DNA of 64,000 nt. It comes from Prorocentrum cordatum. Lineage: Eukaryota > Sar > Dinophyceae > Prorocentrales > Prorocentraceae. The first letter of the stretch is position 1. The number at the start of each line of letters is the position of its first letter. Below the pieces are notes generated by a model. That model ran no database searches and was not told the DNA's origin. It saw only the letters and a program-made list of their open reading frames with translations. The stretch lies in the NCBI GenBank assembly GCA_963575745.1, contig CAUYUJ010019894.1, positions 1-64,000 on the forward strand, given 5' to 3'. Positions 8,815-64,000 of this stretch are shown here, piece after piece. A program made the position numbers and the translations under genes.

Positions 8815-8990
8815 TTCGGTGGAATCGCCCATGCATCGACGATGCGGCGCGACCTGGAGCCTTCTCTTCTCCATCCCGCCGTCGCCGATGCATCGTCGAT
8901 GCGTTGGAGATGCGGCGCGATCCTCCGACCCCATCCGCTCCCCTCCAATTGGAAGGCCTGGAGCTCGCGTGCATGCTGAGAAGGGCAAGG
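8815..8990. repeat. dispersed repeat with GCATCGNCGATGC palindromes, copy 1
   Basis: It contains GCATCGACGATGC near 8832 and GCATCGTCGATGC near 8890, both self-complementary around one base, then GCGATCCTCCGACCCC and a GGAGGCCTGGA-like end. The same order of elements recurs at 41090-41255 in the same orientation, so this is a dispersed repeat. Confidence 0.7.
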
Positions 8991-17855: not shown

Positions 17856-19982
17856 TCAGGCTGCCATCACAGGGAAGCGAAGCGCTCTCACCGTGTCGCG
17901 CGCACCCTTTAGGGTGTAGACGAAGGCTCCGAACTCCCCGCCGACGTTGTGGAACATCTTCCGCGTCAACGGGAAGCTCTCGTTCGGCATCATCCAGCCA
18001 AACTCTTCCGCGCCACGCTGCGCATAGCACGGCGTCGTTACTGCTCGTAAGCGCCTCGCGCGTCTCATCTTATGTACTACGTCATTACTCACTGCCTCTG
18101 GGTATTCAAACTGTAGAAAGCTGCTCTCCCTCTTGCTCGAAATGGCGTGCGCCCCGACTATGCCATCATCTGCGTCGCACCAGACGAAACCGCCGTTACA
18201 GATGAGCTGCGTAAAGGGCGCGAACTTGTCCTGAAACGACACCTCGATGCCACTCAGTCTCTCCATGGGGAACGCCCAGAAGTAGTGCGTGGCCTCTTCT
18301 GGGATACCGGCGAATTCTCGCGTGTGCAGTGGAAATGTGAGCGCTGCCGTCGGGGAGGTGTCGAGCATCAGGCCGTCCGCGCCCAGCGCGATCTTCTTCA
18401 GCTGCTGCTTCACTGCAGAGATCGCGTTCATGGTGTGATCTGAGATCGCGCTCTTGATTGTCTGTATGCTCGGCCTGCCAGCGCGACTGGCGTCGTCCTC
18501 CAAGCTGGCAGAGGAGTGAGATCCCACCATCTCCTCGCGATTGAAACTGATCTTGAGCTTGTCCGACGATGTGCTGGCCGGTCTGTGCAAGTGCGCCATG
18601 TCATCGGGCAGCAGCGGGACCAGCGGCACCGGCGCCAGGAAGTCCGGGAACTGGGCCGCGCCGTCGTACTTGCGCGCGAAGCGGTCCTTCACGACCGTCC
18701 AATTGCACCTGGTGTCGATGGTCTCGAAGGCGCTGAGCACCGGCACTGCTCCAGAGTTGTCGATGCGGGCGACGAAGTCGCACAAGGGCGTCAGCGTGTT
18801 CAGCGCCTTGTCCATGGCCCCGAGAGATGCCGCGATGAGGTGCTCGGGGATGTCGCGCCCAGTCCTTTCGGCGCGAGTCTTGATGCGCTCGCGGATGACA
18901 GCTTCGCCCGCGTAGACGTACATGATAGAGATCTTGTAGTGGGGGTACCTGTGCCTGATGTCCTCGAAGACCTTGGCATAGAACTCCGCGTTGCGGAGCG
19001 ACCCGTCTATCCAGATGTTCTGGCTCCGCTCCATCGCCGCCCACTGCGAGACCTCCATCATCATGGAGGACTCCTGGTGGCACATCGTGCCTGCATCGTG
19101 ACCACACCTCTCCACATACTTCGGCCATTCAGGCATCATCAGCTTGAATGCGTCGGGGTCTACGTGCACAATATTTTCCAGAGGGAAGAAGCCGCGCATG
19201 GACATCCAATTCATGCAATAGCCTTTGCCTACTCCCATGGGCCCGCAGGTGAACACGAGCCAGGGCGACGGCTGCCGGAACGAGCGGACAACGGTGCTTT
19301 TGATAACCTTGTCCTGCCAATTCTGTCTTTCGATGGTGTAATTATTATGATAAGAATAATCCAACTCTTTCCTGAATCTCTTGAAAGCCTCGGTGAACTC
19401 GTCACCCTCCATACTGTACATCTGGTTTGTGGGCTTCGTGTAATCGTAGCCCTCCGGGGTCTCGAAGCCATTGGAGGAGTCTGCCTTGAACTTCAGCAAG
19501 AGCATCTGCAAGGTACCCGAGTCGGGGCCCGACTTCACCGCGCTGGCGAACTGCGCCCGCCCGACCTTGCCGTCATCATCCCGTGGTATCTTCTCGAATA
19601 TTCTCGCCACCTCATGATGTCTGAGGTCGGAAAAGCCGAGGTCCTGAGCCATAGCTACTAAGTGGTCCTCGGTCAAGAAATGTTCCTTCTTGAGGCCATC
19701 TGGGAACATGGTCTTGCGGCTCACCGTGTCACTGAATGTGCCGCTGGCCGTGCCGCCCAGCCTGGCCTTGGAAGCCTTCGAGCTGCTGCTGGGGCTGAAC
19801 TTGGAACTCGTCTTCGCCTTGTCCACAGTAAACTCATAGAACACCTGGATCATGGTGTCGTCCACCTGGTCCTCCGGCAGCAACGAGATCCCCCCATCGG
19901 CATTTTGTCTCCATGGCTGCTTGACCTCCGCCTCCAGGACGCTGGATTGCTTGGCCTCCCTTGAGGAGTGGGAGCATCCCAT
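17856..19982 (-). CDS. zeta-toxin-like P-loop kinase with degenerate EF-hand and MGC N-terminus
   Basis: An uninterrupted 708-aa ORF from the ATG at 19982. The frame is open further upstream, but this start yields MGCSHSSREAK, a classical N-myristoylation/palmitoylation signal, and a relict spliced leader lies 54 bases upstream. The order is: Ser-rich basic N-terminus; an EF-hand-like helix pair with loop RDDDGKVGRAQF, missing the first acidic residue and with Gln in place of Glu at position 12, so probably weak for calcium; and a P-loop kinase of the zeta-toxin/AAA_33 type. The kinase has Walker A GPMGVGKG, VHVDPDAFKLMMPEW and WIDGSLRNAEFY. A C-terminal region of unknown fold contains HYFWAFPMERLSGIEVSF and a short EFGAFVYTLKGARD end. 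Eukaryotic relatives are usually treated as kinases of unknown substrate, not toxins. Membrane attachment through the N-terminus is an inference. The single exon fits a retrogene. Confidence 0.85.
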   Translation of the reverse strand: MGCSHSSREAKQSSVLEAEVKQPWRQNADGGISLLPEDQVDDTMIQVFYEFTVDKAKTSSKFSPSSSSKASKARLGGTASGTFSDTVSRKTMFPDGLKKEHFLTEDHLVAMAQDLGFSDLRHHEVARIFEKIPRDDDGKVGRAQFASAVKSGPDSGTLQMLLLKFKADSSNGFETPEGYDYTKPTNQMYSMEGDEFTEAFKRFRKELDYSYHNNYTIERQNWQDKVIKSTVVRSFRQPSPWLVFTCGPMGVGKGYCMNWMSMRGFFPLENIVHVDPDAFKLMMPEWPKYVERCGHDAGTMCHQESSMMMEVSQWAAMERSQNIWIDGSLRNAEFYAKVFEDIRHRYPHYKISIMYVYAGEAVIRERIKTRAERTGRDIPEHLIAASLGAMDKALNTLTPLCDFVARIDNSGAVPVLSAFETIDTRCNWTVVKDRFARKYDGAAQFPDFLAPVPLVPLLPDDMAHLHRPASTSSDKLKISFNREEMVGSHSSASLEDDASRAGRPSIQTIKSAISDHTMNAISAVKQQLKKIALGADGLMLDTSPTAALTFPLHTREFAGIPEEATHYFWAFPMERLSGIEVSFQDKFAPFTQLICNGGFVWCDADDGIVGAHAISSKRESSFLQFEYPEAVSNDVVHKMRRARRLRAVTTPCYAQRGAEEFGWMMPNESFPLTRKMFHNVGGEFGAFVYTLKGARDTVRALRFPVMAA

Positions 19983-20036
19983 GAGCGCGGCCGGGAAGCT
20001 CAGGCGCGCTCCTACGGGGCTGTGCGGCCGCGAGCA

Positions 20037-20057
20037 CTTGAGCCAAAATGGTTCTGG
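20037..20057 (-). other. relict dinoflagellate spliced leader
   Basis: On the minus strand the 15 bases CCATTTTGGCTCAAG exactly match the 3' part of the dinoflagellate spliced leader. Counting the six bases 5' of it, 18 of 21 match. It lies 54 bases upstream of the kinase ATG, in the same strand, which is a plausible 5' UTR length. A leader in genomic DNA next to a gene means that a trans-spliced mRNA was reverse-transcribed and reinserted. Confidence 0.8.
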
Positions 20058-20140
20058 ATTGGGCTCTTGGGGCCTCTTGGTGGCTTCTTGAATCGCCCTG
20101 GGGTGCTCCGGTAGCATTTTAATCCTCTTCCCTCTCATTT

Positions 20141-20692
20141 GAGGGAGTTTGTCTTGTGAACTCACGTCATCCTGACCCCCGGCGCGCGAAGAAATGGGCC
20201 CGCCAACCGCCCCCCCGGTCCCGGAAACGGCGCCATCCGTCACCGCCTGCCAAACCGGCGCCCTCGCCTGAGACATCCTCCAAAAATCGCCCCCGGAAGA
20301 GGCTCTCAACCGCCCCCCCGGTACCAGAAACGGCGCCATCCGTCACCGCCTGCCAAACTGGCGCCCTCGCCTGAGACAAAATCGCCCCCCGGACCCTCCC
20401 CAAGAGGCTCTCAACCGCCCTTCCGGTCCCGGAAACGGCGCCATCCGTCACCGCCTGCCAAACCGGCGCCCTCGCCTGAGACATGCTCGAAAAATCGCCC
20501 CCCGGACCCCCCCCAAGAGGCTCTCCGAGGGGTCCGGGGGGGTGGGTCTGGGGAGGTCCGGGGGGGGGATCCGGGGGGGGTCCCGAGGGTGTCCGGAGAG
20601 CTCCGGGGGGGGGTCTGGGGGGGGTGCGGGGGAGCCCAGGGGGTCGGGAAGGGGGGAGGGCAGGGGGGGGAGTGGTGGGAGGGGGGAGAAGG
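20141..20692. repeat. tandem-repeat block A (about 105-bp unit)
   Basis: Three units carrying CGGCGCCATCCGTCACCGCC and CCTCGCCTGAGACATCCTC occur with landmarks at 20228, 20331 and 20436. They are followed by a G-rich tail of GGGGGTCCGG-type runs. The block is preceded by TTTGAGGGAGTTTGTCTTGT. The same block, with the same flanks on both sides, recurs at 23032-23672. Confidence 0.9.
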
Positions 20693-50410: not shown

Positions 50411-50834
50411 CAAGCGTCGTGTTGGTGGCCTGGACACGTAAAAACAATCGAAAACAAGCTGGTAAGCTTAGGTATGTGTTACGCTTTAAGCGTTGCCATA
50501 TCCCAGGCTTTGGCTCATATCGCATGAGCAAGAGAGCAAGACGAAGCATGGGATCTGGAGTAAAGGATAGGATGGGCATCGTCAATGGAAAAGGTATTTT
50601 CCGATCTCTGATGCAAGTCGTGCGCCTCGGTGAGGCACAATCACATATTAGGCCGGGCCCGGCTTGAGCCAGGCACGGCAGCGGTACATGCTCGATTTAC
50701 ACCTCGCCTTAAACCTTCTCCGTTTAAAGTCGGAGGGGGAGGAGACGAGCAGGCACCGCACTTCTACATTATGCGGAAAAACAGTGCTAAGCAGCAGCGG
50801 CTGCCTACAAGGAAAGGGCGCGCGAGTAGCCTCG
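50411..50834 (-). other. 3' flank of the copia element, LTR not proven
   Basis: This lies directly 3' (minus sense) of the RNase H stop codon, where a long terminal repeat would be expected. No second copy of this sequence is present in the window, so its ends and any LTR cannot be defined. Three GCGRR-N4-YYCGC hairpins occur at 50822-50887. Confidence 0.35.
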
Positions 50835-53285
50835 CTACCGGCGAGTTTCCTCGCTATTACAGCGCACCTGCCCGCGGGTTTCCCCGCTAGCTCGGGAGGC
50901 AGGGCCGTCCTGAGACGACCTGCCCGCCCTATACGGTGTATGTTTCTTCAGCTCGTGCTTGAAGGATTGCTGGCCGGCCATTACTTGTAGGAGCAACGCG
51001 CGGTCAATACTACCTTTGGTATGACCATCGGCAGTCATATCCCTCGTGTCACACCATTGAACGCTTTCAACGATTCCGCGCTCCATCATCTGGCGGATCC
51101 AGCTAATGTGCCCAAGCAGAGTACATTCTGTGGGCTTCTTCAGATCTTTGCTAGACAAAGACTTGAAGACAGACTCGGCATCAATAGTCAGAGTGACGTT
51201 GATACATAGACCACCCATTTCCAATATGTTCTTTAACTGTGTGGGGGTCAATGGTCCCGAGTGTAGCTCGTGGAGCGTTACAATGGTCGGGTAGCAGTCT
51301 TCCAAGTTGCGGGCTGCTGCCAGTGTTTCCGCAGAGTAGCTCGAACGCACCTGCAGTCGATGAGACTTGCAGTATGCGTCCACCAGGTGCACGACGGGTT
51401 TCCCCGCTTGCGTGTGGCCACGCCTCAGCAGGTTAGCCCCGCGGATACCATAGCCTTTGACCTCGTCGTCTTCATCTCCGTTGAGACGACGATAGCCAGA
51501 ATCGCTATGCAGGTCGACTTCTCCTGTTGGGGTCATAGCTTGATACACGATCTTCTTCGGACCTGCCTGTAGTTTTCTGGTAACCGCGTTTAGTCGTCGT
51601 ACCTGGATGTTTGTCGGTTCCTGGATACGTTGTAGTGAGACAACATAGACCATCAGCCATACCTGCGTGATCAACGCATAGGCTAGAGCGCCACGAAGAC
51701 TGACGAACATGTCAGAAATCGTCTTTGTCGCTTTGCTCTCATGATCAGCTCCTGTGAGTTCTGGATGTGTGATAGGACGAAGCTGTTTGATGTATTCGTC
51801 CTGATCAAGAGTGACGCTCCCATCATCGGTCTTGTTGTACCGAACGGCACAATTTGTGTATGTGTGCTTGTTCAGTTTGCACTTCCCAAACGTATCTTCA
51901 ACACACTTGACATACTTGTCAATAGCCTCTTCCTTCCCAGTCATATTGATGTCATCAACGTGCTTGGCTGTCAAGAGGTTTGAGCTCATCTCGAACTCTT
52001 CGTCGTATGAAGTAGGCTGTAGCCCCAAGCTCCTAGTGATGGACCTGAGCTTCAGCGAGAATGCCCTGGGAGCATCCTTCGTGCCCGTCCCCGGCTTCAG
52101 ACACCGAAGACAATGCTTTGATTCGTCATATGACTCAAAGCCTGGCAGCGTGCGAAGGACAGCTGCTGACCCAGGTGGTAGTGTGAAGCACGCCACACGC
52201 TCTTTCTCGCCCGTTGCCGCGGCGAGCTCGCCATAGGTCAGTCCCTTCAGGAAAGCCTTGTTGATGTCCAGGGAAGCGATGATCCAAGCTTTGTTGCATG
52301 CAGCAGAACTTGCGAGCAGTCTCTGGCTTGACCTCCTTGCCGTGCCAGAGAAGGTTTCGACATCAAAGGCTTCGAGGTCCATGAAGCCACGGAGTACCAA
52401 GCGTAACCTGATCGTCCTTTCCATTTCGCCCTTTTCGTTCTTGACAAACTTCCATTTGTATACGTAGCGTGACGTCATGATGTTAGACGCTTTGCTCAAG
52501 TCAGTCATCTGGAAGCATTTGTTGTCAAGCCAAGTCTTCAATTCTGTGTAGAGGGCTTTGGAAACTTTGACCGGTTTTGCTTGGATGTCGGCCTTCGTGA
52601 GTAGATCGTCTTCCTTGACGACCACGGCACGTTTGGAGGCAGCGCTAACGTATACTCGCATAGTTGTGACGCTGCTGTCATCCAACAGTCGGTGTTGCTG
52701 CTCGGACAGGACGACTTTGGACATGTCTGCTGTGAAGCAGAGCTCGATGTACTTCCCGTGCTCATCGGAGTCCAGATCATATTTACTGTCCGGATCCGTG
52801 GAGCATAAGGGAACGTAGTAAGAAGTGTCCATGTCGTATCCTGGCGGGCGACCCCGCTCCGGCAAGTGGCCTTGCACATCTTCACAGGTCGTAGAGACTA
52901 ACACACACTGTGTGTCTGTCATGTATGTGGGAACTGCATGCATGACTTCTTCTGTGTCAGCTTCAAAGAGTGTTCTGTCATCCATCAGTTCAGCATACCA
53001 CGACTTCAAGACAAGGGCATCCAGATCTTCTTCTGTTTCCTCTATGATGGTCGGGAGCCGACCATCGTTCTCCGTAGGAGGCTCCTCAGGAGCAGCTGCT
53101 GGAGGTGACTCGCTTGGTGGTGGATCATCAGCGAGTTCCTCAAACTTAGTGAGGTCTCGGTCAAATCCAGCAGACGGCTTCCTGGATTTAAGACACTGGA
53201 TGATGCGTGAGTGTGTAGATCCTGTGATGTCGTAGATGTTCAAGGCAGTGCCATCAGCTTCATAGTAATGAAACCAGGGGTCACA
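50835..53285 (-). CDS. copia-type reverse transcriptase and RNase H (Pol 3' part)
   Basis: The frame is open from just after a TGA at 53286. The reported 802-aa ORF begins at a TTG at 53243, which is not a likely true start. RT: SRYVYKWKFVKNEKGEME at the N-terminus, motif A IASLDINKAFLKG, LRCLKPGTGTKDAPRAF, and the active site TAKHVDDINMTG (HVDD instead of YVDD). RNase H: LHSDSGYRRLNG, SYSAETLAAARNL, LTIDAESVFKSL and CDTRDMTADGHTKG, giving the D-E-D-D set. The enzyme would copy element RNA in cytoplasmic particles. It follows integrase with a one-base offset at 53240-53285 and ends at a TAG at 50835. Confidence 0.92.
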   Translation of the reverse strand, partial: CDPWFHYYEADGTALNIYDITGSTHSRIIQCLKSRKPSAGFDRDLTKFEELADDPPPSESPPAAAPEEPPTENDGRLPTIIEETEEDLDALVLKSWYAELMDDRTLFEADTEEVMHAVPTYMTDTQCVLVSTTCEDVQGHLPERGRPPGYDMDTSYYVPLCSTDPDSKYDLDSDEHGKYIELCFTADMSKVVLSEQQHRLLDDSSVTTMRVYVSAASKRAVVVKEDDLLTKADIQAKPVKVSKALYTELKTWLDNKCFQMTDLSKASNIMTSRYVYKWKFVKNEKGEMERTIRLRLVLRGFMDLEAFDVETFSGTARRSSQRLLASSAACNKAWIIASLDINKAFLKGLTYGELAAATGEKERVACFTLPPGSAAVLRTLPGFESYDESKHCLRCLKPGTGTKDAPRAFSLKLRSITRSLGLQPTSYDEEFEMSSNLLTAKHVDDINMTGKEEAIDKYVKCVEDTFGKCKLNKHTYTNCAVRYNKTDDGSVTLDQDEYIKQLRPITHPELTGADHESKATKTISDMFVSLRGALAYALITQVWLMVYVVSLQRIQEPTNIQVRRLNAVTRKLQAGPKKIVYQAMTPTGEVDLHSDSGYRRLNGDEDDEVKGYGIRGANLLRRGHTQAGKPVVHLVDAYCKSHRLQVRSSYSAETLAAARNLEDCYPTIVTLHELHSGPLTPTQLKNILEMGGLCINVTLTIDAESVFKSLSSKDLKKPTECTLLGHISWIRQMMERGIVESVQWCDTRDMTADGHTKGSIDRALLLQVMAGQQSFKHELKKHTPYRAGRSSQDGPASRASGETRGQVRCNSEETRR

Positions 53286-55009
53286 TCATTATCATAGTGC
53301 ACTAGTGTACAGCTGTCTGCATAGGGTGCAGCAGGCAACTTCGTCAGGCTCTTGGCAAGTCGTACAGCAACAACGTTTTCAATACGAAAGTAGTTGCGTA
53401 TGAGGTACTGAAGAGCCAAGTGCACCTTAGGCGAAAGTCGGCTCGCAGCAGTCATCTGCAACCGACCCTGTTTCGCTGGTAGATATCCGAAAGTCATGGC
53501 GGGTTTCCCCGCTGGCAGACCGGCAATAAAGGCCAATACTGTCCGAAAGGCCGTATTGTCCGATCCTATCTCGCGGACCATAAGTGCTTCGATGTACAGC
53601 GTGTGTCGTGTGTCAGGATACTGTACTCGCACCTCGCGACTGCCGACCTTCACGATGACCTGGCCTCGGTCAGGTTCGTTGCGGATGACCGGGTATGGAC
53701 CACTCCATCCACCCCAGTCGTCTTTCGTGGTGGTCGGGCGATGATAGTCCACGAGATCTCCCTCTTTGTAGTGAAATTCACCCGTAGTAGTAGTCTTCGT
53801 ACGGAGAGCCCTGTTCGTCTTGGCAACCGCAGTGGCCTGCGTGATTGCCTCCAGACTAACCCTCCTGATTGTTTCCTCCCTTGAGTGATCTGATGATTCA
53901 GCGGACTGATCATGATCCAAGACAGGGAAATCGGGAAGCATAGCTGGTTGTCTGCCATACAGCGCATTGTACGGAGACACTTCATTATAGAAGGTAAATG
54001 CGTTGCTGGCAAACAAGGCTTCATGTAAGAGACGAGTGAAATTGAGAGGGATATTTAATCTATTCAATTCTTCTCCCATCACGTGTAGGAGGTGTCGCAG
54101 GATGCCGTTCCTAGCTTCGATAGTTGTGGCGTGTTGGCCACGCGCTCGAATACGAAGCTCTGTTCCCTTAGCCTTAAGGATGGCCTTTGCTGTATCAGTA
54201 TTCAGTGCTCCTTCCCCATCGGAGTATAAGATTTTAGCAGGGCCATGTTGCATCCAAGTCGTATGATAGGCATCGAGAACAGTATGCATGGCTTTATCAG
54301 GAATCTCTGTGCCAGCTGCCCAGCGAATACAACGGTCGATGATGTGAAAAACAATATGTTCCTGTTTGTAAAAGAAAAGATCACATTCGACTTCCTCGTT
54401 GAAACGTCCTGGCAGTGACACAGTAGGCATCACCGTGTTGCCTGGTTTGTCCCAGGCTCGACATTCTCTACACGAGTCGCAAATGCCTTTGATCAGACTC
54501 AAACGGGTTTCACCCAGACCACCCTTGGTTAGAATCATCCGCATTTTTGGCTCCTTGGCATGAAACCATCTCAAGTGGAGTTTGCGGAGTTCTCGCTGCA
54601 CTACAGCTGGGTCGAAGCTGCGCAGGTTTTGGAGGCTGAGCTGAACGTCGAAGCGAGTCCAATCAGGGAGCCTTGGCCTTGGCCTCGGCTCTGCTTGAGG
54701 CTGCGGCGGTTGTGGAGGATCTCCTCCCTCCATGCGTCCGCGCCTTGCTGCAACTTGTGGCAGTCTACGGTGATCGTCAGAGCTGCCAGCGCCAGTGTTG
54801 CCACCATTAGCCCCTTCGGCTCTGGTGATGTCATGGCTGCTGGCGCCTGCGGTTGGATCGCCCTCACCAGGCCGTGGCGGCCTAGTCGCGCGTATGCGCG
54901 CTCTCGCGGCCGGCGCCGCTTTTGCGGCTGGCGCCTCTTCTGCGGCTGGAGCCGCTTCCGCGGCCGCGGACTGCGCCGAGAGCGCTTGCCCCGCCGGCGC
55001 GGCTGCCAA
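53240..55009 (-). CDS. copia-type integrase (Pol middle part)
   Basis: 589-aa frame. The N-terminus is low-complexity Ala/Arg/Pro and begins after a TAA at 55013-55015, so the apparent TTG start is only a frame boundary. Zinc-binding HHCC region: LHLRWFHAKEPK, then GICDSCRECRAW. DDE core: EEVECDLFFYKQEH (first Asp), AKILYSDGEGALN (second Asp) and HATTIEARNGILRH (Glu). The following EVSPYNALYGRQPAMLPDF is typical of retroelement integrases. A beta-rich C-terminal region follows (EGDLVDYHRP, VIVKVGSREVRVQYP). It would insert element cDNA into the genome. The end overlaps the RT frame by a TTGA at 53240-53243, offset by minus one. Confidence 0.92.
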   Translation of the reverse strand: MAAAPAGQALSAQSAAAEAAPAAEEAPAAKAAPAARARIRATRPPRPGEGDPTAGASSHDITRAEGANGGNTGAGSSDDHRRLPQVAARRGRMEGGDPPQPPQPQAEPRPRPRLPDWTRFDVQLSLQNLRSFDPAVVQRELRKLHLRWFHAKEPKMRMILTKGGLGETRLSLIKGICDSCRECRAWDKPGNTVMPTVSLPGRFNEEVECDLFFYKQEHIVFHIIDRCIRWAAGTEIPDKAMHTVLDAYHTTWMQHGPAKILYSDGEGALNTDTAKAILKAKGTELRIRARGQHATTIEARNGILRHLLHVMGEELNRLNIPLNFTRLLHEALFASNAFTFYNEVSPYNALYGRQPAMLPDFPVLDHDQSAESSDHSREETIRRVSLEAITQATAVAKTNRALRTKTTTTGEFHYKEGDLVDYHRPTTTKDDWGGWSGPYPVIRNEPDRGQVIVKVGSREVRVQYPDTRHTLYIEALMVREIGSDNTAFRTVLAFIAGLPAGKPAMTFGYLPAKQGRLQMTAASRLSPKVHLALQYLIRNYFRIENVVAVRLAKSLTKLPAAPYADSCTLVHYDNDVTPGFITMKLMALP

Positions 55010-56355: not shown

Positions 56356-56585
56356 TTTCTTCGGGACTTTCTTCGGTTGATGCCGGCCTCTTTGTCAGCT
56401 TTCTGCTTTTCTTTCTGTTTTATCCTGGCATCAGTGGGCAACGCAGTTTCCGCGGAGAGATCCGCTGCGGAGGAATCCGCTGTTAAGTCAGGAAATGGCG
56501 GAATTTCAGGAAAGTTGTTGGTGGGTCGCGTTTGGCAACGCTCAATCGAAGGGGGAGGAGATCGATCGTCATCGACGATCGTCAC
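56184..56585 (-). CDS. charged linker of copia Pol
   Basis: The frame starts one base out from the preceding one and reads VDDDRSPPPSIERCQTRPTN, then AADLSAETALPTDARIKQKE and KQKADKEAGINRRKSRRKWK. It is a mixed-charge, probably disordered linker between the Pol-N domain and the methyltransferase-like domain. Near 56360 reading must move one base again. Two GCGGA-N4-TCCGC hairpins lie at 56452-56480. Confidence 0.6.
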   Translation of the reverse strand: MTIVDDDRSPPPSIERCQTRPTNNFPEIPPFPDLTADSSAADLSAETALPTDARIKQKEKQKADKEAGINRRKSRRKWKTVTTTVERTSKDLTAPHISTTFLLTTRTRTANQRTSSCCYRRGNPLTHMLMSSR

Positions 56586-57589
56586 ACGCTTTGGGCGTGG
56601 CCTTCGCGACTCACCATTGCCATGAAGAACTGAGCCGGAGGCTCCCAGTATAGCCGAGTACTGATGTTTGTAACCCCATCAGGTAATGGAGCTACATAAT
56701 TGTACCCAGTTGGCTGATCCTGAATTCTAATATCTTGAACGGTCTTATTCGTGTCCAGGTCGGTCGTGACTCTACGAACAACATGGTCCCATTGAGGGCC
56801 CTTTTGTGGACATTGGACGTAGTGTCTGACCTTTTTGTCAACGCGAGTACACACGCTGAGGTGTACCGCACTCCGCTCATTCCTGATCATGTTGGCTTTA
56901 TCGAGTTGATCAAGGAAGCGTGCAATAATGATAGCCAAAGTTTTATACCGAAACTCGGCACGTTGCTGATCTTGGCCATACCAATTCAAATCATGCTCCT
57001 TGTGTGAGCCACAAGTACATTTCCATAAGTTTATCGGTATATGAGGACAAGATGTAGCAACTTGTATATAAGAACCACTGGGATATTTACTGGATCGGTC
57101 AAACTTGATACCGAAATGACAGAGTCTGATTCGTATAATGCTTAGCTTCAAATCTTCGATAACATCTTTGATCGGACCCTGTTTCCAGAAATACCCGGGT
57201 GGCCCCAGGATAACTATCTGCATTCTCAGAGCACGCGCTTTGATCAGGAGATTTTGTATACGTTGATAATGTGGTCCCGCCCTCTTTCCTGGAGTACGAA
57301 CGTACCAATCAGAGGGTGTGGCCACCCACAACATATTGTAGTCTCCTGCCAACAAATTTCCCAAATACTGTGTTCCAGTTGAAGTCATTACCTCATTATG
57401 GGTAATCCGGTCGCATATATATCCACGGGTTCGGAGTTCAGCGCAAGCTGTGCGAATATCTTCGATGACAAGACATTTTGAATGATATTTTTCCTCTCGG
57501 GCCTCAGCGCGGCCAACGTATGTCGCGAGGAGGCCGGTATTCGGCTTCTCTTCGCAAGCGAGCGCCGCCGGCGCGCCCGCCTGCCCCCG
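56582..57589 (-). CDS. conserved Pol-N domain of the copia element
   Basis: It is in frame with the upstream protease ORF, separated only by TGA at 57590-57592, so the frame can be read from CGG at 57589. It reads NTGLLATYVGRAEAREEKYH, then LAGDYNMLWVATPSDWYVRT, MQIVILGPPGYFWK, RIRLCHFGIKFDRSSKYPSG with SYIQVATSC, and CTCGSHKEHDLNWYGQDQ. I recognise this as a recurrent part of dinoflagellate copia polyproteins but know no function. The GPPG and PSG..QVAT parts could belong to the same methyltransferase-like fold as the next domain. Confidence 0.6.
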   Translation of the reverse strand, partial: RGQAGAPAALACEEKPNTGLLATYVGRAEAREEKYHSKCLVIEDIRTACAELRTRGYICDRITHNEVMTSTGTQYLGNLLAGDYNMLWVATPSDWYVRTPGKRAGPHYQRIQNLLIKARALRMQIVILGPPGYFWKQGPIKDVIEDLKLSIIRIRLCHFGIKFDRSSKYPSGSYIQVATSCPHIPINLWKCTCGSHKEHDLNWYGQDQQRAEFRYKTLAIIIARFLDQLDKANMIRNERSAVHLSVCTRVDKKVRHYVQCPQKGPQWDHVVRRVTTDLDTNKTVQDIRIQDQPTGYNYVAPLPDGVTNISTRLYWEPPAQFFMAMVSREGHAQSV

Positions 57590-57600
57590 TCAGCGGCGGT
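57584..57600 (-). promoter_or_regulatory. in-frame UGA CGG, candidate stop readthrough site
   Basis: The protease ORF ends CGC CGC TGA and the same frame stays open for 336 codons beyond. The codon after the stop is CGG, and the next 30 bases are very GC-rich with a GGCGCGCC palindrome. UGA CGG followed by structure is the known type II readthrough context of several plant RNA viruses. A nonsense mutation from CGA is the alternative. Confidence 0.35.
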
Positions 57601-60016
57601 CGTGTGACCACGTTGCCGTCTGACTCGGGGGCATGCTGTTAGCGGATGGCTCCGCAGGAGTCGCTGGTGCGGCTACGCTCACGATCTCCACGCGGGTTGG
57701 CCCCGCAGAGTCCGACGAGCCTCCGCCCGTGTAGCTTGGTGGTGGTGGCGGTGTCGCGGGTGGCCCCGCTTGGTTCTCAGGCGTCCATTTATTCACCGCC
57801 TCCTGGACTGCCCAGTATATCTTAGACTTCAGGGCATCCTTCATATGTGGCCAGGTCCCCTCGGGACACTGTTGGCCCTCCCACCAGCTGTTCAGCGTCC
57901 TGTCCACGATCAAACGGGTCGTGTCTTCCAGGAGCTGCTTGTCGAGATACGGCTCGACAATGTACGTAACAGTCGTGACGGTCATGGACTGTCCCGTCGC
58001 GGGTTGCCCCGCTGTGGTCTCGGCGGGTGGCCCCGCACTTACTCCGGCGGGTGGCCCCGCACTTACTCCGGCGGGTGGCCCCGCACTGACGGGGTCCTCT
58101 TCGTTCTCCGTCTCGGTGTAGCCATCTCGACTGCTGCGGATTGCGAAGGTGTTCGTGACCGTCTGGCTTTTAGCCCCGTCATACAAACCGCAGGGAATCG
58201 CGAGATGTCCCGAGGGAGTTTTCTTCGCCCTCAGGACCTTGGCACCCCTTCCCAGCTTCAGGGTGTAGTCACCGCTGGGGAAGATAACCTTCTGGTAGCC
58301 TGGCTTCAGCACGATGATCGTGTCACGTGCTTCCATGGCACCAAGGCCCCAGATGGCCGGGAGGTTGGCACCCGAGCCTTCTGCGATGTTGGAGGCATAC
58401 TCCTCGATACGGGGGCTTGCCTCATTGGCATATTGCACCCCGATCTTGAAGTTGCCCATTTTCCGACATATCGCAGCACCCTCACCGACACCGTTAATGT
58501 AGAGGGTCTTGCTCAGGGTGCATATGGCAGGTCTATGATTGTACCTGGCCATAGCCTCCTGGAAGGTTCGCGCCGTATTGGCTCCAATGATGTTCACGTT
58601 GGAGCCAATGTCTAGCATGAACGAGATGCACGGCATTCCGTCTTCGTCGGGAAAGAATGTCCCATTCCGCGCTGCCAGAGCCATCGTACCATGGTCATCG
58701 GTGTGGTACGTAATCTGTGAACCGAGTGTGCCTTTCAACAGGCGTTGTTCAAGCACCCATTGGCTCATGGTTAACTCGGTGCACCACATCTGCTCATATT
58801 GGCGGCGCTCCTCCACGGTAATTGGTTCCTGTTCAAGAACCCAATAATTCGCAGATAGTGTGGACATCCATTCACCTCCTGGCGGCAGCGTGTCCGTGTC
58901 GTCACGTGCATAGGTCAGCCCCTCTGTATCGATCATGAATGTGGTGTGGAACTGGGCTGCCTCCGCGCTCTCAGCGCTTGCCCGGCTCCTAGCGCTGACC
59001 GGGCTTGTCACACGTGAGGTCCTGGATGATCCAGTTGGCCTTCGAGTCCCGCCTCCGCTCCTGCCACTCCGCCTGATGTTGGCCTCCATTGCCCTCAGGA
59101 AACCTGGATTTGGAGGCCCATTTGCGGGTGGCCCCGCTTTGGCGGCGGGAGCCGCTTCAGCGGGTGGCCCCGCAGCTGGGGGCTCCTGTGCTCGAAGCGT
59201 AGGCAGGATTGGCATCTGGATGCCTTGCTCTGGCGCTGGCCAGGGGGATGCCTGTGCAGCTGGGGCACGTGCGGATGGCTCCGCCGATTGTGCGGCTCGA
59301 GCCTCTAGTGCCTCCACTGCTTCCCGTAGCCGACGCATTTCCCGGGCATCTGCCACGTACCTCTCCTGCTGGCGCGCTTGTTCTGACTCAGCGTCGCGCT
59401 GTCCAGCATATGGGAAATGTGCTATAACTATGCCCGGCCCGCGACATACAGCGCAGGGGGCCTCGTTCGGCGCACCTGGCCGCTGATTGCGGACGTGCTG
59501 CTGTGCAACACGATCCCAGCATATATCGTGGAAGAAGTGCCCACACGCCAGTCTCCACACGATGGTGCCCATCTCGTAGGTGTCCATACAGATTGGGCAC
59601 TGTGTGAAGTTGTAGTCTGAAATAACTGGAGCAGGCACGTCTGGGCGAGTCCGAGCTTGGCGCTCGAAAGTGGTTTCGCCCTCCCGATATGGCGTCGGTG
59701 GCGGTCGTCTATCTGTCCGTTCAGCGGGTGGCCCCGCGTCTGCGGGTGTCCCCGCTTGGGTCTCACGCTCGATCCTTCTCTGGATCGCGCGTTGTTGGCG
59801 CAGCCTGGCGTTGTCCCGAGCCTGCTGCCTAGATGCCAGTATCGCTTGCTGCGTGTTGTGCACGTCGCGGATGTAGTCTGGCATGTTGCCCATAGCGGCT
59901 GGCACCGCGAGACCAGCTGGCTGAACTACGGTCTCGGGGTCCGTCGGCGTGGGCATGTAGGCGTAGTGCGGCATAGACTGCGCATCGACCGCTCGTGTAA
60001 ACTGCAAACGAAACAT
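57590..60016 (-). CDS. Gag/protease ORF with RING-H2 finger and retropepsin-like protease
   Basis: 808-aa frame; the ATG at 60016 is probably internal, since the strand is open upstream in this frame (EYTRNLANEMF). Order: Gln/Arg-rich helical N-terminus; RING-H2 at about residues 139-193 with CPIC, then LACGHFFHDIC and APCAVC (C3H2C3); a coiled coil (AREMRRLREAVEALEARAAQ); a Pro/Ala-rich linker full of AGPPA; a conserved stretch (NYWVLEQEPITVEERRQYEQ); and an aspartic protease with CISFMLDIGSNVNIIG (DIG in place of DTG/DSG) and LPAIWGLGAMEARDTIIV. Three GVSAGPPA units follow. A RING suggests ubiquitin ligase activity; the protease would mature the polyprotein. It ends at TGA 57590. Confidence 0.85.
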   Translation of the reverse strand: MFRLQFTRAVDAQSMPHYAYMPTPTDPETVVQPAGLAVPAAMGNMPDYIRDVHNTQQAILASRQQARDNARLRQQRAIQRRIERETQAGTPADAGPPAERTDRRPPPTPYREGETTFERQARTRPDVPAPVISDYNFTQCPICMDTYEMGTIVWRLACGHFFHDICWDRVAQQHVRNQRPGAPNEAPCAVCRGPGIVIAHFPYAGQRDAESEQARQQERYVADAREMRRLREAVEALEARAAQSAEPSARAPAAQASPWPAPEQGIQMPILPTLRAQEPPAAGPPAEAAPAAKAGPPANGPPNPGFLRAMEANIRRSGRSGGGTRRPTGSSRTSRVTSPVSARSRASAESAEAAQFHTTFMIDTEGLTYARDDTDTLPPGGEWMSTLSANYWVLEQEPITVEERRQYEQMWCTELTMSQWVLEQRLLKGTLGSQITYHTDDHGTMALAARNGTFFPDEDGMPCISFMLDIGSNVNIIGANTARTFQEAMARYNHRPAICTLSKTLYINGVGEGAAICRKMGNFKIGVQYANEASPRIEEYASNIAEGSGANLPAIWGLGAMEARDTIIVLKPGYQKVIFPSGDYTLKLGRGAKVLRAKKTPSGHLAIPCGLYDGAKSQTVTNTFAIRSSRDGYTETENEEDPVSAGPPAGVSAGPPAGVSAGPPAETTAGQPATGQSMTVTTVTYIVEPYLDKQLLEDTTRLIVDRTLNSWWEGQQCPEGTWPHMKDALKSKIYWAVQEAVNKWTPENQAGPPATPPPPPSYTGGGSSDSAGPTRVEIVSVAAPATPAEPSANSMPPSQTATWSHDRR

Positions 60017-62298
60017 CTCATTGGCAAGATTCCGAGTGTATTCGTTCGCAGGTGCCCCGCAATCATAGGAGTGTTATTCATCTGCGCGTAGTACTCCGGG
60101 TACATCGGCGCGTCCATGGCCTGTGCCTCTGCTGGTCCATGATTGTCCCATCCATATATTGGGTGTGATGCTATTCCTGGAATAAACACCTGTCGATATG
60201 GATTCGTGGGATCAGCATTTGGAGCATCTTCAGAAGTCCAGCTCCAGAGAGGCCGAAAGTCGCCATGATTCGTAACATCTATGTTGCGGTTCCGCAACAG
60301 GCTTGGCACTCTGTCAGCTTGTTGCTGCAGAAAGGTAGCCTGTGCTCTCAAGTTGGCTGCCCGACGTTCGTAGTCTGAACCTTGCTGTCCGTCAGCGGGT
60401 GGCCCCGCATGTGCGAGTGACTCCGCAGGCGTTCGCTCGGCGGGTGTCCCCGCAGCCACTCCTCCTTCACTACCCCTCGGAGTGCCAAAGGGAGTGGTCG
60501 CCTGTAGTGCTGCTGCGAGCGCCGGATTCCCGCGAATCGCCTGGAGTCTTTGCCACAAGCTGTTCTCGCTCGTTTCAGACGGCGGAGTCCGAAACGGCGA
60601 GCCACCCTCTGAGCCGCCCATAGGGACAAACCTCGCACCTCCAGCCTGCTGCGGAGGGCGTTGTGGCTGTGGTCCTAGGACGCCTGGTGGCCCCGCAGGA
60701 GTGCGCAGGTTCCTCTGCTGTGCGTATTGGATACCTGTATGCACTGCCCACGGGTCAGCACGATATAGCTGATCGGTCAGTCCAGAGACGTCGGCTGGTG
60801 TCAAGTAGCTGTTGAGGGCCTGGACCCATGTCTGCTGATCCGGCCTCCAAGGAGATGCTACCGTTGCTACTGGTGTGACCACTTGTTGCCATGAACCGTC
60901 CGAGGTGTCTACCGCGGGTGTCCCCGCACCTGCGGGTGGCCCCGCTTCAGGCATGACCTCGTCCTCCTTGGCATTCATCATGAGGACTGTCTGTGTGTCG
61001 TACGGTCGTGGAGCAACATCTTGCTCGGTCATGACCAAATTGAATGGACGACCGTCCGTCTTAGTCCAGCCCTTTAGGTTCATGGCGTGATCTTCCATTA
61101 CACCCAGAGTTCTGTCACACATTTTAAGTGGCAGGTAGTCATCGGTGCGAATCCTGTCCGCGGGTTGGCCCCGCCTCCGCGACTTGTCATAAGCCAGCGG
61201 ATTGCTCCAGGCTTCGCCGACCCGATATTTCGCAATGCTCACTATCTGGAGGATATGATCGGGCGGTATACGTCCGTCGTGGCCCCGTGTCATGACTATG
61301 TCATTTGCTGATCTCCAGAGAGAGAAGCCACTGGACAGCATCTTGTTGATGCTGCAGAATATGAGCACCTCCGAGTCAGGACGGATGCCCGATTGAATCC
61401 TCGGGTCGCCCGGGAGGTAGGGGCAGCCGTGTGCAAATTGGCGCCCCCCCTTCCTTTTAGGGTTGTCCTGTGCGAGGCATGAAAGGCCATTAGCAAGGAT
61501 GTCCTTGACATACTCCCACTGTGTCCCGTGGATGAAATATACTGGGTCGTCTGGTTCTTTCATCCATGTTGTGATCGGCTTGTACAGCGACTCGGGACAG
61601 TGGATGCCTGGACTGCTGTGGCCGTTCGTGGCTCTGATGAAGTACTGTGGCCTGTGTGCCTTTGGTCGAAACCTGGGAGGCATCAGCATGCTGTCCTCAA
61701 CGCACTTCATCTGGAGCCTGCCCTTCTGCATGCCGTGATGGTCAATCATCTCACAGCAGTTTAGCAGCACCCAATACACGTATGACGTGTGGGGCCTGCC
61801 CTTGATCAGCACCTCGTGCATTTCACGATAGCCTTTCCACTGATCATTTTCAGTCCAGTTTGTCAGCAGATCGTCAACAACAACCCAGCCATCGTATGGA
61901 TCGAAAGTGCTGATCTTTTCGAAGTGTCGGCTGAATCCGTCCTTCCAATATGGGCTATGGCGTAGGGCTGTAGAGAACCATATTGACACCTTGGTCATTT
62001 GCCCCTCGCGCGGCAAAGTCGGATCCATGCCGAACCTCTCCATGACCTTCAGGAGCTCTGCTTTATGCTGCGCAACGCGTAGTGGCGGCCTGTCTCGCAA
62101 CATATTTCCCACGGTTTGTTGTTCACGTTCCCAGTCGTTGCGGCACTCGAAGTTACGTCGGTCAGGGCAATTAATGACCTCGTATCGGTCCGTATCGTCT
62201 CGAGTGACTCGTGGGTTTATGGTGCGCTTCGGGCCTTTGCCTTCAATGCCTTGCCAGTATTCGATGGCTCCCAGAGGGATGTTCCTAAGAACAGACAT
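59926..62298 (-). CDS. Tpt1/KptA-like RNA 2'-phosphotransferase domain in a Gag-like ORF
   Basis: 790-aa frame from ATG 62298; it might begin earlier, inside the N gap. Residues roughly 105-355 follow the Tpt1/KptA fold: IWFSTALRHSPYW (Arg-His pair), YDGWVVVDDLL, QYFIRATNGHSSPGI (Arg and the NGHS loop), PVYFIHGTQWEYVKDIL (HGT), QFAHGCPYLPGD, IRPDSEVLIFCSINKML, and GFSLWRSANDIVMTRG with HDGRIPPDHI. Family members move a 2'-phosphate from RNA to NAD+. All the Arg/His landmarks I can name are kept. The C-terminal half is a Pro/Gln/Ala linker with AGPPA repeats. The frame ends in random sequence after a shift at 60048-60060, where the RING frame takes over. Confidence 0.8.
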   Translation of the reverse strand: MSVLRNIPLGAIEYWQGIEGKGPKRTINPRVTRDDTDRYEVINCPDRRNFECRNDWEREQQTVGNMLRDRPPLRVAQHKAELLKVMERFGMDPTLPREGQMTKVSIWFSTALRHSPYWKDGFSRHFEKISTFDPYDGWVVVDDLLTNWTENDQWKGYREMHEVLIKGRPHTSYVYWVLLNCCEMIDHHGMQKGRLQMKCVEDSMLMPPRFRPKAHRPQYFIRATNGHSSPGIHCPESLYKPITTWMKEPDDPVYFIHGTQWEYVKDILANGLSCLAQDNPKRKGGRQFAHGCPYLPGDPRIQSGIRPDSEVLIFCSINKMLSSGFSLWRSANDIVMTRGHDGRIPPDHILQIVSIAKYRVGEAWSNPLAYDKSRRRGQPADRIRTDDYLPLKMCDRTLGVMEDHAMNLKGWTKTDGRPFNLVMTEQDVAPRPYDTQTVLMMNAKEDEVMPEAGPPAGAGTPAVDTSDGSWQQVVTPVATVASPWRPDQQTWVQALNSYLTPADVSGLTDQLYRADPWAVHTGIQYAQQRNLRTPAGPPGVLGPQPQRPPQQAGGARFVPMGGSEGGSPFRTPPSETSENSLWQRLQAIRGNPALAAALQATTPFGTPRGSEGGVAAGTPAERTPAESLAHAGPPADGQQGSDYERRAANLRAQATFLQQQADRVPSLLRNRNIDVTNHGDFRPLWSWTSEDAPNADPTNPYRQVFIPGIASHPIYGWDNHGPAEAQAMDAPMYPEYYAQMNNTPMIAGHLRTNTLGILPMRCFVCSLHERSMRSLCRTTPTCPRRRTPRP

Positions 62299-62305
62299 TA
62301 CTGGC

Positions 62306-62405
62306 NNNNNNNNNNNNNNNNNNNNNNNNNNNNNNNNNNNNNNNNNNNNNNNNNNNNNNNNNNNNNNNNNNNNNNNNNNNNNNNNNNNNNNNNNNNNNNN
62401 NNNNN
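62306..62405. other. assembly gap, 100 N
   Basis: Exactly 100 N, a conventional scaffold gap of unknown true length. It lies just upstream of the 2'-phosphotransferase ORF on one side and in the hairpin-rich GVSAGPPA stretch of the second RING-protease copy on the other. Confidence 0.99.
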
Positions 62406-64000
62406 TCTCGCGGGTGGCCCCGCACTTACTCCGGCGGGTGGCCCCGCACTGACGGGGTCCTCTTCGTTCTCCGTCTCGGTGTAGCCATCTCGACTGCTGC
62501 GGATTGTGATGGTGTTCGTGACCGTCTGGCTTTTAGCCCCGTCATACAAACCGCAGGGAATCGCGAGATGTCCCGAGGGAGTTTTCTTCGCCCACAGGAC
62601 CTTGGCACCCCTTCCCAGCTTCAGGGTGTAGTCACCGCTGGGGAAGATAACCTTCTGGTAGCCTGGCTTCAGCACGATGATCGTGTCACGTGCTTCCATG
62701 GCTCCTAGGCCCCAGATGGCCGGGAGATTGGCACCCGAGCCTTCTGCGATGTTGGAGGCATACTCCTCAATACGGGGGCTTGCCTCATTGGCATATTGCA
62801 CCCCGATCTTGAAGTTGCCCATCTTCCGACATATCGCAGCGCCCTCACCAACACCATTGATGTAGAGGGTCTTGCTCAGGGTGCATATGGCAGGTCGGTA
62901 ATTGTACCTGGCCATAATCTCCTGGAAGGTTCGCGCCGTATTGGATCCAATGATGTTCACATTGGAACCAATGTCTAGCATGAACGAGATGCAGGGCATA
63001 CCGTCTTCGTCAGGAAAGAATGTCCCATTTCGCGCTGCCAGAGCCACTGTCCCATGGTCATTGGCGTGGTACGTGATCTGCGAACCGAGTGTACCTTTCA
63101 ACAGGCGCTGTTCAAGAACCCATTGACTCATGGTTAACTCGGCGCACCACATCTGCTCATACTGGCGGCGCTCCTCCACGGTAATTGGTTCCTGCTCAAG
63201 AACCCAATAATTCGCAGATAGCGTGGACATCCATTCGCCTCCTGGTGGCAGCGTGTCCGCGTCGTCACGTGCGTAGGTCAGCCCCTCTGTATCGATCATG
63301 AATGTGGTATGGAACTGGGCTGCCTCTGCGCTCTCAGCGCTTGCCCGGCCCCTGGCGCTGACTGGGCTTGCCACTCGCGAGGTCCTGGTTGATCCAGTTG
63401 GCCTTCGAGTCCCGCCTCCGCTCCTGCCACTCCGCCTGATGTTGGCCTCCATTGCCCTCAGGAAACCTGGATTTGGAGGTCCATTTGCGGGTGGCCCCGC
63501 TTTGGCGGCGGGAGCCGCTTCAGCGGGTGGCCCCGCAGCTGGGGGCTCCTGTGCTCGAAGCGTAGGCAGGATTGGCATCTGGATGCCTTGCTCTGACGCT
63601 GGCCAGGGGTATGCCTGTGCAGCTGGGGCACGCGCGGATGGCTCCGCCGATTGTGCGGCTCGAGCCTCTAGTGCCTCCACTGCTTCCCGTAGCCGACGCA
63701 TTTCCCGGGCATCTGCCACGTACCTCTCCTGCTGGCGCGCTTGTTCTGACTCAGCGTCGCGCTGTCCAGCATATGGGAAATGTGCTATAACTATGCCCGG
63801 CCCGCGACATACAGCGCAGGGGGCCTCGTTCGGCGCACCTGGCCGCTGATTGCGGACGTGCTGCTGTGCAACACGATCCCAGCATATATCGTGGAAGAAG
63901 TGCCCACGCGCCAGTCTCCACACTGTGGTGCCCATCTCGTAGGTGTCCATACAGATTGGGCACTGTGTGAAGTTGTAGTCTGAAATGACTGGAGCAGGCA
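62406..64000 (-). CDS. second copy of the RING-protease ORF, partial at both ends
   Basis: It matches 58043-59637 at a constant offset of 4363 bases from about 62434 on, with only scattered single-base differences (for example TTGTGATGG for TTGCGAAGG near 62505). It contains the whole RING finger, the AGPPA linker and the protease motif LDIGSNVNIIGSNT. One frame runs without break from the window end to the gap. The open frame goes past position 64000, so the Met at 63950 inside the RING is not the start. It implies a second, probably intact, copy of the element in tandem or a haplotype/scaffolding duplicate. Confidence 0.85.

Follow-up and report, generated by a model that had tools for sequence, protein, structure and literature searches.

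A Tpt1/KptA-like domain in the polyprotein of a copia-type retrotransposon from Prorocentrum cordatum

The Tpt1/KptA-like domain of the locus

The stretch of DNA analyzed here (positions 1 to 64,000 of contig CAUYUJ010019894.1 from the bloom-forming dinoflagellate Prorocentrum cordatum; hereafter the window) contains on its reverse strand part of a copia-type long terminal repeat (LTR) retrotransposon, which encodes a Tpt1/KptA-like RNA 2'-phosphotransferase domain followed by a RING finger, a protease-like motif, integrase motifs and a reverse transcriptase (RT). The Tpt1-like domain is carried by an open reading frame (ORF), 59926-62298 (-), open across 790 aa. It is almost certainly a real, in-frame domain that belongs to the element, as the original prediction had proposed: it lies within the element polyprotein in tens of genomic copies as well as in other families of the lineage.

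Comparison of the window ORF with Pfam identified PF01885 (PTS_2-RNA) as the sole family at E <= 1, with a match over residues 136-339 (E 5.3e-16, 59.6 bits versus the gathering cut-off of 26). This match covers positions 28-177 of the 177-position profile, and the metagenomic relatives P0004 and P0014 cover positions 3-177 and 5-177, respectively. All motifs by which the domain had been recognized by eye were found in the predicted order: ALRH (R113/H114), IRATNGHS (from residue 221), HGT (257-259), IRPDS (R306) and WRSANDIV (R329). The search of PDB sequences retrieved mammalian tRNA 2'-phosphotransferase 1 (7yw3, E 2.9e-12; 7yw2, E 3.6e-11), with both matches restricted to residues 216-355, followed by a weaker match to another Tpt1 chain (7yw4, E 0.029); the profile of relatives identified the same three Tpt1 chains with E-values of 2.8e-14, 2.1e-12 and 1.1e-8. 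The N-terminal extension that precedes the domain (~100 aa) is conserved.

The original prediction had been staked on a structural match to the KptA/Tpt1 family, and such a match was found. With the AlphaFold2 model of the domain (built from an alignment of 8 sequences) as the query, all 21 Foldseek matches in the PDB at E <= 0.001 are Tpt1/KptA proteins, and those ranked after them have E >= 1. Eighteen of the 21 were named from their titles, 1wfx via PMC6333775, which in the part consulted calls it ApeTpt1, and 9lda and 9ld3 via the TkoKptA deposit series. The best match is again 7yw3 (E 9.6e-10), with modest TM-scores (0.60 by target length).

The Arg-His-Arg-Arg tetrad, described as essential in other Tpt1 enzymes in the consulted part of PMC6333775, corresponds to R113, H114, R222 and R286 of the window ORF. 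These residues and the HGT motif are invariant in all 52 copies read, 42 of which are distinct in DNA. Among the diverged relatives, counting the rows that have a residue at the given position, the tetrad is kept as R in 23/23, H in 21/23, R in 24/25 and R in 22/24, and the exceptions are confined to the old copies L067, L068 and L079 and to the Pyramimonas sequence P0007. The state of the active site bears on the idea that the domain merely descends from Tpt1 and serves in Gag, without catalysis, as an RNA-binding or structural module. Its location past the zinc knuckle and ahead of the stop, with Gag, would suit such a module, and in another element family (family B, see below) the equivalents of two arginines of the NAD lobe, R306 and R329, are replaced. 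However, the tetrad and HGT are kept even there, the tetrad survives in most of the diverged rows, and the domain evolves under purifying selection. A purely structural role is disfavoured because the active site is invariant, and we regard it as improbable.

Live subfamilies are under purifying selection, with ratios of replacement to synonymous substitution rates (dN/dS) in the domain of 0.12-0.25: 0.16 between the window and L073 (57.5 synonymous and 31.5 replacement differences; Fisher p 2e-16), 0.12 between L073 and L074 (Fisher p 4e-21), 0.22 between the window and L074, and 0.25 between the window and L075. Among 12 pairs of old stop-free copies, six exhibit dN/dS of 0.67-1.08 and the other six lower values (see below). 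This pattern is as expected if constraint acts during replication and fades after insertion.

The retrotransposon and its copies

The search of the P. cordatum genome (4.128 Gb, 21,875 contigs) revealed at least 57 near-identical copies of the Tpt1-bearing sequence (94-100% identity; 57 of 15617 candidates scored). This number is a lower bound, as are those from the search for diverged copies (82 of 5721 candidates scored) and from the PF01885 search described below (150 of 2877). In 55 of the 57 scored copies the matched stretch is stop-free, and 23 sit in open frames of at least 3000 aa (one with a TAG read through). Of these copies 52 were read (C13557 over 2047 bases only), and seven were read with their flanks, in two pieces each.

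Full copies are of the copia type and ~16.3 kb long, with LTRs of ~285 bp that are 98.3-100% identical within each of the seven copies (in one over 133 bases only), and a 5-bp target duplication flanks the element in all four copies inspected by eye. The order of parts is Gag/CCHC - Tpt1 - RING - protease - UGA - integrase - RT/RNase H. In the copy C13626, ORF1 has 3105 open codons (the first Met is codon 40 in the four copies printed) and encodes, in this order, a CCHC knuckle (a weak match that stays under its cut-off, E 0.007), Tpt1 (E 1.8e-15), a RING finger (E 6.9e-8) and a protease-like motif. A single in-frame TGA separates it from ORF2 (2199 codons), in which the integrase motifs (HHCC and DDE) are followed by RVT_2 (E 2.4e-10) and then by motifs like those of RNase H; we take the HHCC/DDE region to be the integrase and the last region to be RNase H-like on the strength of their motifs. 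The copia order protease - integrase - RT - RNase H is present both in C13626 and in the window, all parts except RT being identified by motif. Together with the LTRs and target duplications, RVT_2 and the integrase motifs ahead of it uphold the assignment of the element to copia made in the original prediction. According to the open-frame listing, ORF1 is uninterrupted in 4/7 copies and ORF2 in 3/7. ORF2 gave weak matches only to PDB sequences (best E 0.031).

LTRs with TG...CA ends and a polypurine tract are usual, not strictly defining, features of LTR retrotransposons. Here, the LTR ends read AC...CT in all four copies printed, and no polypurine tract was found before the 3' LTR in 4/4 copies printed, where the sense strand is pyrimidine-rich (CTCGTCTCCTCCCCCTCC, e.g. 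L010 ~8900-8926). The window motif FMLDIGSNVNIIG is presumably the protease active site; it reads DIGS in the window family and P0014 and DVGS in family B, the usual retropepsin motif being D[ST]G. Two hydrophobic, membrane-like stretches were noticed by eye at the start of ORF1, ahead of the Gag-like region (L009:1905-2700). ORF2 of L010 (P0017) exhibits the motifs ELCGGKGG and QPSCRTTG between UGA and the integrase (residues 485-547), where Pfam has no family; ELCGGKGG resembles, in our opinion, the methyltransferase motif I.

The junction between the two ORFs is conserved. TGA and the same downstream stem sequence are found in all eight copies of the window family compared, the window included, with a predicted 12-bp stem that begins 5 nt past TGA (also in L010:2220-2258). 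In family B (L093), TGA is likewise followed, at almost the same spacing, by a stem predicted to be 12 bp long; of the 11 base pairs that can be compared between the two families, three differ at both positions and one at a single position, and pairing is preserved in every case. UGA and the hairpin at the Gag-pol boundary are a candidate readthrough signal. If the stop works as such, the position of Tpt1 before UGA implies production at the level of Gag rather than that of pol.

Directly after the 5' LTR, TGGTAGCGGA is complementary to the 3' end of tRNA-Met(CAT), CCA included, with 10 contiguous paired bases and 13/20 overall. Candidate tRNAs were sought by pattern (seven matches, of which three were fetched and one was called a tRNA by ARAGORN), and the matching tRNA-Met(CAT) gene of the genome encodes one contiguous 73-base tRNA. 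These data concern another possible role of the domain, the processing of a spliced or half-tRNA primer for minus-strand priming, which is related to the primer-tRNA idea of the original prediction. Some copia elements do prime with tRNA fragments. Moreover, the classical substrate of Tpt1 is the splice junction made by the fungal tRNA ligase (PMC6333775, in the part consulted). However, it is the ordinary mature 3' end of a tRNA-Met that the primer site is complementary to, rather than a spliced or internal position, and the gene is contiguous. This weakens the primer-tRNA role, and a half-tRNA or spliced-tRNA primer is judged very unlikely.

The features of the window copy are listed in Table 1. 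The window lacks the front part of ORF1 (Gag), and its copy is a damaged 3' part of the element, probably dead because its ORF2 holds an additional ~158 bp, which to judge from the translation are rich in T. The RING-protease ORF overlaps the Tpt1 ORF in another frame, and the original prediction, in which the latter leads one base out into the former, is correct for the window copy. It does not extend to the family: the shift is a local slip, since 52 of the 57 scored copies align over residues 1-750/751 only, i.e. without the out-of-frame tail. Five copies, including the window, align across the tail, and of the four others, the three that were inspected (L002-L004) each carry their own frame slip near the same spot. 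A programmed frameshift between Tpt1 and RING was rejected in view of the 52 tail-less copies and the ORF1 that is uninterrupted in four of the seven. Elsewhere in the window, 17856-20339 (-) is a probable host gene (827 aa) with a zeta-toxin-like kinase domain (PF06414, E 9.4e-19) and a weak EF-hand match.

Table 1. Positions of the retrotransposon features in the window
Feature	Position	Strand	Basis or remark
Tpt1-bearing ORF, piece of element ORF1	59926..62298	-	residues 1-750 common to other copies; 751-790 (59926-60048) are an out-of-frame tail
Conserved extension preceding Tpt1 (GAIEYWQGIEG...)	61999..62286	-	common to metagenomic relatives P0004, P0006, P0014
Tpt1/KptA domain, residues 101-345	61264..61998	-	PF01885 (stretch 136-339), PDB sequence match, Foldseek
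TALRHSP, first Arg-His of catalytic tetrad (R113, H114)	61951..61971	-	motif; tetrad definition from PMC6333775 (part consulted)
IRATNGHS, third tetrad residue R222	61615..61638	-	motif
FIHGT, NAD+-binding HGT motif (257-259)	61522..61536	-	motif described in PMC6333775 (part consulted)
GRQFAHG, fourth tetrad residue R286	61426..61446	-	alignment to mammalian GRTHIH segment
WRSAND motif of NAD lobe (R329)	61300..61317	-	motif
RING and aspartic-protease-like ORF (remainder of element ORF1), ends at TGA	57590..60016	-	ORF listing, Pfam
RING finger, C3HC4 type	59444..59599	-	PF13923 E 1.7e-7, PF13639 E 7e-7
Protease-like active-site motif FMLDIGSNVNIIG	58583..58621	-	motif only; no Pfam match
UGA stop (57590-57592) between Gag-level ORF1 and pol ORF2, then predicted 12-bp hairpin after 5 nt	57554..57592	-	
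ORF2 first conserved region	56582..57388	-	66% identical over 156 aa in second Tpt1-bearing family
Integrase, HHCC and DDE-type motifs	54104..54577	-	motifs; no Pfam match
Copia-type reverse transcriptase RVT_2, residues 241-498 of ORF 50835-53243	51750..52523	-	PF07727 E 7.2e-12
RNase H-like motifs	51036..51509	-	motifs only
3' LTR of window copy	50448..50730	-	97% to LTR of copy C13626
Assembly gap (N)	62306..62405	.	just upstream of Tpt1 ORF
RING-protease part of second copy, past the gap	62406..63998	-	94.5% to copy C13626

Relatives, host-type genes and origin

The arrangement of domains is shared by diverged relatives. P0014 (1627 aa, from a 5678-base metagenomic contig) comprises Tpt1 (Pfam E 5.3e-17) and RING (E 1.4e-8) and is collinear with the element over Tpt1-RING-protease (E 5e-110 and 1e-74), the Tpt1 region being 42% identical. 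In the search for diverged copies of P. cordatum, 18 of the 82 scored were read, all chosen stop-free and hence biased to intact ones, and four of these belong to the window family; downstream of an old decayed copy, L081, the order Tpt1-RING-protease was found again, in pieces in several frames. The whole-genome search with PF01885 revealed a third family, B, in which the one copy read downstream encodes a linker, RING, a protease-like motif, TGA and ORF2, the last being 66% identical over 156 aa to ORF2 of the window family.

Among the best 150 of 2877 candidates from the PF01885 search, the top seven rows (95-186 bits, frames of 231-439 aa) are of the host type, as judged by score and frame for all seven, six of which were read; the remaining 143 rows score 71-92 bits, many of them in frames of 1000 to 4482 aa. 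Altogether 11 of the 150 rows were read, the six host-type and five others. The host-type Tpt1 loci (C13309, C15736, C16367, C2187, C20388, C15112 and C7345) represent about four diverged kinds, and two of them have identical scores. Tpt1 is usually a single-copy gene, and seven host-type loci would be unusual.

That host-type Tpt1 genes do exist in the genome could suggest that the domain is just a host gene beside, or trapped by, one element copy, the finding by which the original prediction was to be refuted. Yet, the domain occupies the same in-frame position in at least 57 copies, it is followed by the same downstream parts in family B and in the old family L081, and the host-type genes are separate from the in-polyprotein copies, clustering apart with support of 97 in the second, unrooted tree. 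The copies refute this explanation; it was rejected, and its probability is negligible.

The first tree left out four short fragments (P0006, P0008, P0010 and P0011), and the second included ten of the earlier diverged rows, with L067 and P0007 represented without the C-terminal part. In the second tree, unrooted and constructed without cellular Tpt1 of other organisms, family B takes an intermediate position, with the host copies on one side and the remaining element families on the other. Family B shares with the window family and with the old families several inserts, which are absent or much shorter in the host copies. They are located between LRH and DGWV, ahead of the KxRLQ segment, and about nine residues before the fourth tetrad Arg. 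Because the element families share these inserts, a single ancient capture of Tpt1 would be the simplest reading, and two separate captures are possible.

Two EukProt sequences labelled as Pyramimonas sp., P0007 and P0012, carry the Tpt1-element sequence. They were not accepted as a green-algal element, as P0007 falls inside the P. cordatum old-family clade (support 78 for the nearest pairing); dinoflagellate contamination or transfer is possible for P0007, and the number that precedes its name does not correspond to an NCBI taxid of the alga. The phage search gave no match at E <= 0.01, and no relatives were found among the viral contigs searched with P0014 patterns.

Proposed function and comparison with known systems

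We propose that a Tpt1/KptA enzyme was captured and, its active site still intact, became fixed in the Gag-level polyprotein of a Ty1/copia lineage, where it would remove 2'-phosphates within the particle; we assign this reading a probability of roughly 0.6. Being encoded before UGA, the domain would be produced as abundantly as Gag, be either freed or retained by the element protease, and enter the particle. Host nucleases would cut the element RNA (or tRNA) and a host Trl1-type ligase would reseal it, leaving a 2'-phosphate, which the particle Tpt1 would strip with the use of NAD+, clearing the template for reverse transcription and sparing the RNA from decay. Clearing of 2'-phosphates is consistent with the conserved tetrad and with the position of the domain at the Gag level, and it agrees with what has been proposed for the KptA domains of RNA-virus polyproteins (PMC9503650, in the part consulted). 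The best-supported mechanism is an NAD+-using enzyme whose substrate is phosphorylated RNA within the particle or near it, and the element Tpt1 probably carries out active NAD+-dependent RNA phosphate chemistry. That its main job is to clear repaired or damaged element RNA is a more tentative suggestion.

We know of no mobile element shown to cap its RNA with ADP-ribose, and this speaks against the main competing explanation, according to which the domain is an end ADP-ribosyltransferase that caps 5'-phosphorylated element RNA or cDNA against exonucleases or sensors. On the other hand, in vitro ADP-ribosylation of 5'-phosphorylated RNA ends is documented for human TRPT1 and for a bacterial KptA (PMC6582358, in the part consulted), and the closest solved relatives of the element domain are mammalian TRPT1 chains. 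We regard end-capping as unlikely.

Several observations weigh against the removal of 2'-phosphates by a captured enzyme. The structural model is of modest confidence (predicted local distance difference test, pLDDT, 56.2; predicted TM-score, pTM, 0.53) and weak in detail. NCBIfam gives the window ORF no family, and its equivalog for RNA 2'-phosphotransferase, NF002014 (a prokaryotic annotation model with a cut-off of 239 bits), is matched by P0014 with 18.3 bits. The energy of the hairpin is unexceptional (z -1.60; 14 of 200 shuffles fold as well). The other six of the 12 old pairs exhibit dN/dS of 0.21-0.57, so that constraint and decay are not cleanly split, while three replacement changes and no synonymous one separate the live pair L072-L073; the ratio of the proportions of replacement and synonymous differences (pN/pS) is 0.39 in the domain between the window and L004, and in the pooled value, 0.16, pairs of related copies enter repeatedly. 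To these should be added the replaced NAD-lobe arginines of family B. P. cordatum has its own Tpt1-like genes, so that an enzyme supplied by the element would be superfluous unless it acts in the particle. Pfam reports no RNA ligase, 2H, macro or Nudix family in the element, hence repair would need host partners. Finally, primer extension with SuperScript III on RNA of tpt1-delta yeast crosses the 2'-phosphorylated junction; as the consulted part of PMC6456296 reads, a 2'-phosphate does not stop reverse transcriptase altogether.

A bolder and rather doubtful extension of particle-borne 2'-phosphate removal is that the whole giant-copia lineage has long carried out NAD+-dependent RNA repair or RNA-end chemistry of its own in particles, undoing the cuts of host nucleases that leave 2',3'-cyclic phosphates; the RING domain would then perhaps be a second anti-host arm. 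If true, this would be a reverse-transcribing counterpart of phage tRNA-repair systems.

Tpt1 is inessential in mammalian taxa, and its natural substrates outside fungal tRNA splicing are debated. It is likewise inessential in exemplary bacterial taxa, according to the part of PMC6333775 consulted. Retention of Tpt1 through several diverged element families is a natural experiment, which suggests that its activity pays on selfish RNA, and its presence within the polyprotein suggests that these mobile elements may mend or protect RNA themselves. The element offers a concrete system for studying the effects of 2'-phosphates or ADP-ribose on retroelement RNA. It also hints at an unrecognised RNA-cutting or RNA-ADP-ribosylating defence in dinoflagellates.

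The element domain shares the profile, the predicted fold, the tetrad and HGT with cellular Tpt1/KptA/TRPT1 (PF01885; 7yw2/7yw3), but differs from them in its location within a retrotransposon polyprotein, its extra inserts and its N-terminal extension of ~100 aa. As to the junction, the closest parallel is Tca2 of Candida albicans, a retrotransposon of the Ty1/copia class. There, too, gag and pol are divided by an in-frame UGA with a potential downstream RNA structure, and in S. cerevisiae this junction failed to bring about readthrough by itself (PMC2194720, in the part consulted); unlike for the element described here, no Tpt1-like enzyme is mentioned in the abstract of that paper. KptA domains have been reported in the polyproteins of a Beihai picorna-like virus and a Botrylloides leachii nidovirus, with RNA-end repair proposed as their role (PMC9503650, in the part consulted, with 0 occurrences of 'retrotransposon' or 'retroelement' in the main text). 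The likeness consists in a domain inside the polyprotein of an RNA-based selfish element; the carriers, however, are positive-strand RNA viruses in one case and an LTR retrotransposon in the other. Captured cytosine methyltransferases have been described in retrotransposons of Symbiodinium and Klebsormidium, the Copia elements of Symbiodinium being without DNMT (PMC5890265, in the part consulted). The Symbiodinium methyltransferase elements resemble the present one as dinoflagellate retrotransposons with a captured host-type enzyme, whereas the enzyme and the types of elements are different in both organisms. No published LTR retrotransposon with a Tpt1 domain was found among the open-licence PMC papers listed, in agreement with the original prediction, which knew of no such copia element. 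An LTR retrotransposon with a captured enzyme belongs to a known kind, and it is Tpt1 as the captured enzyme that is new.

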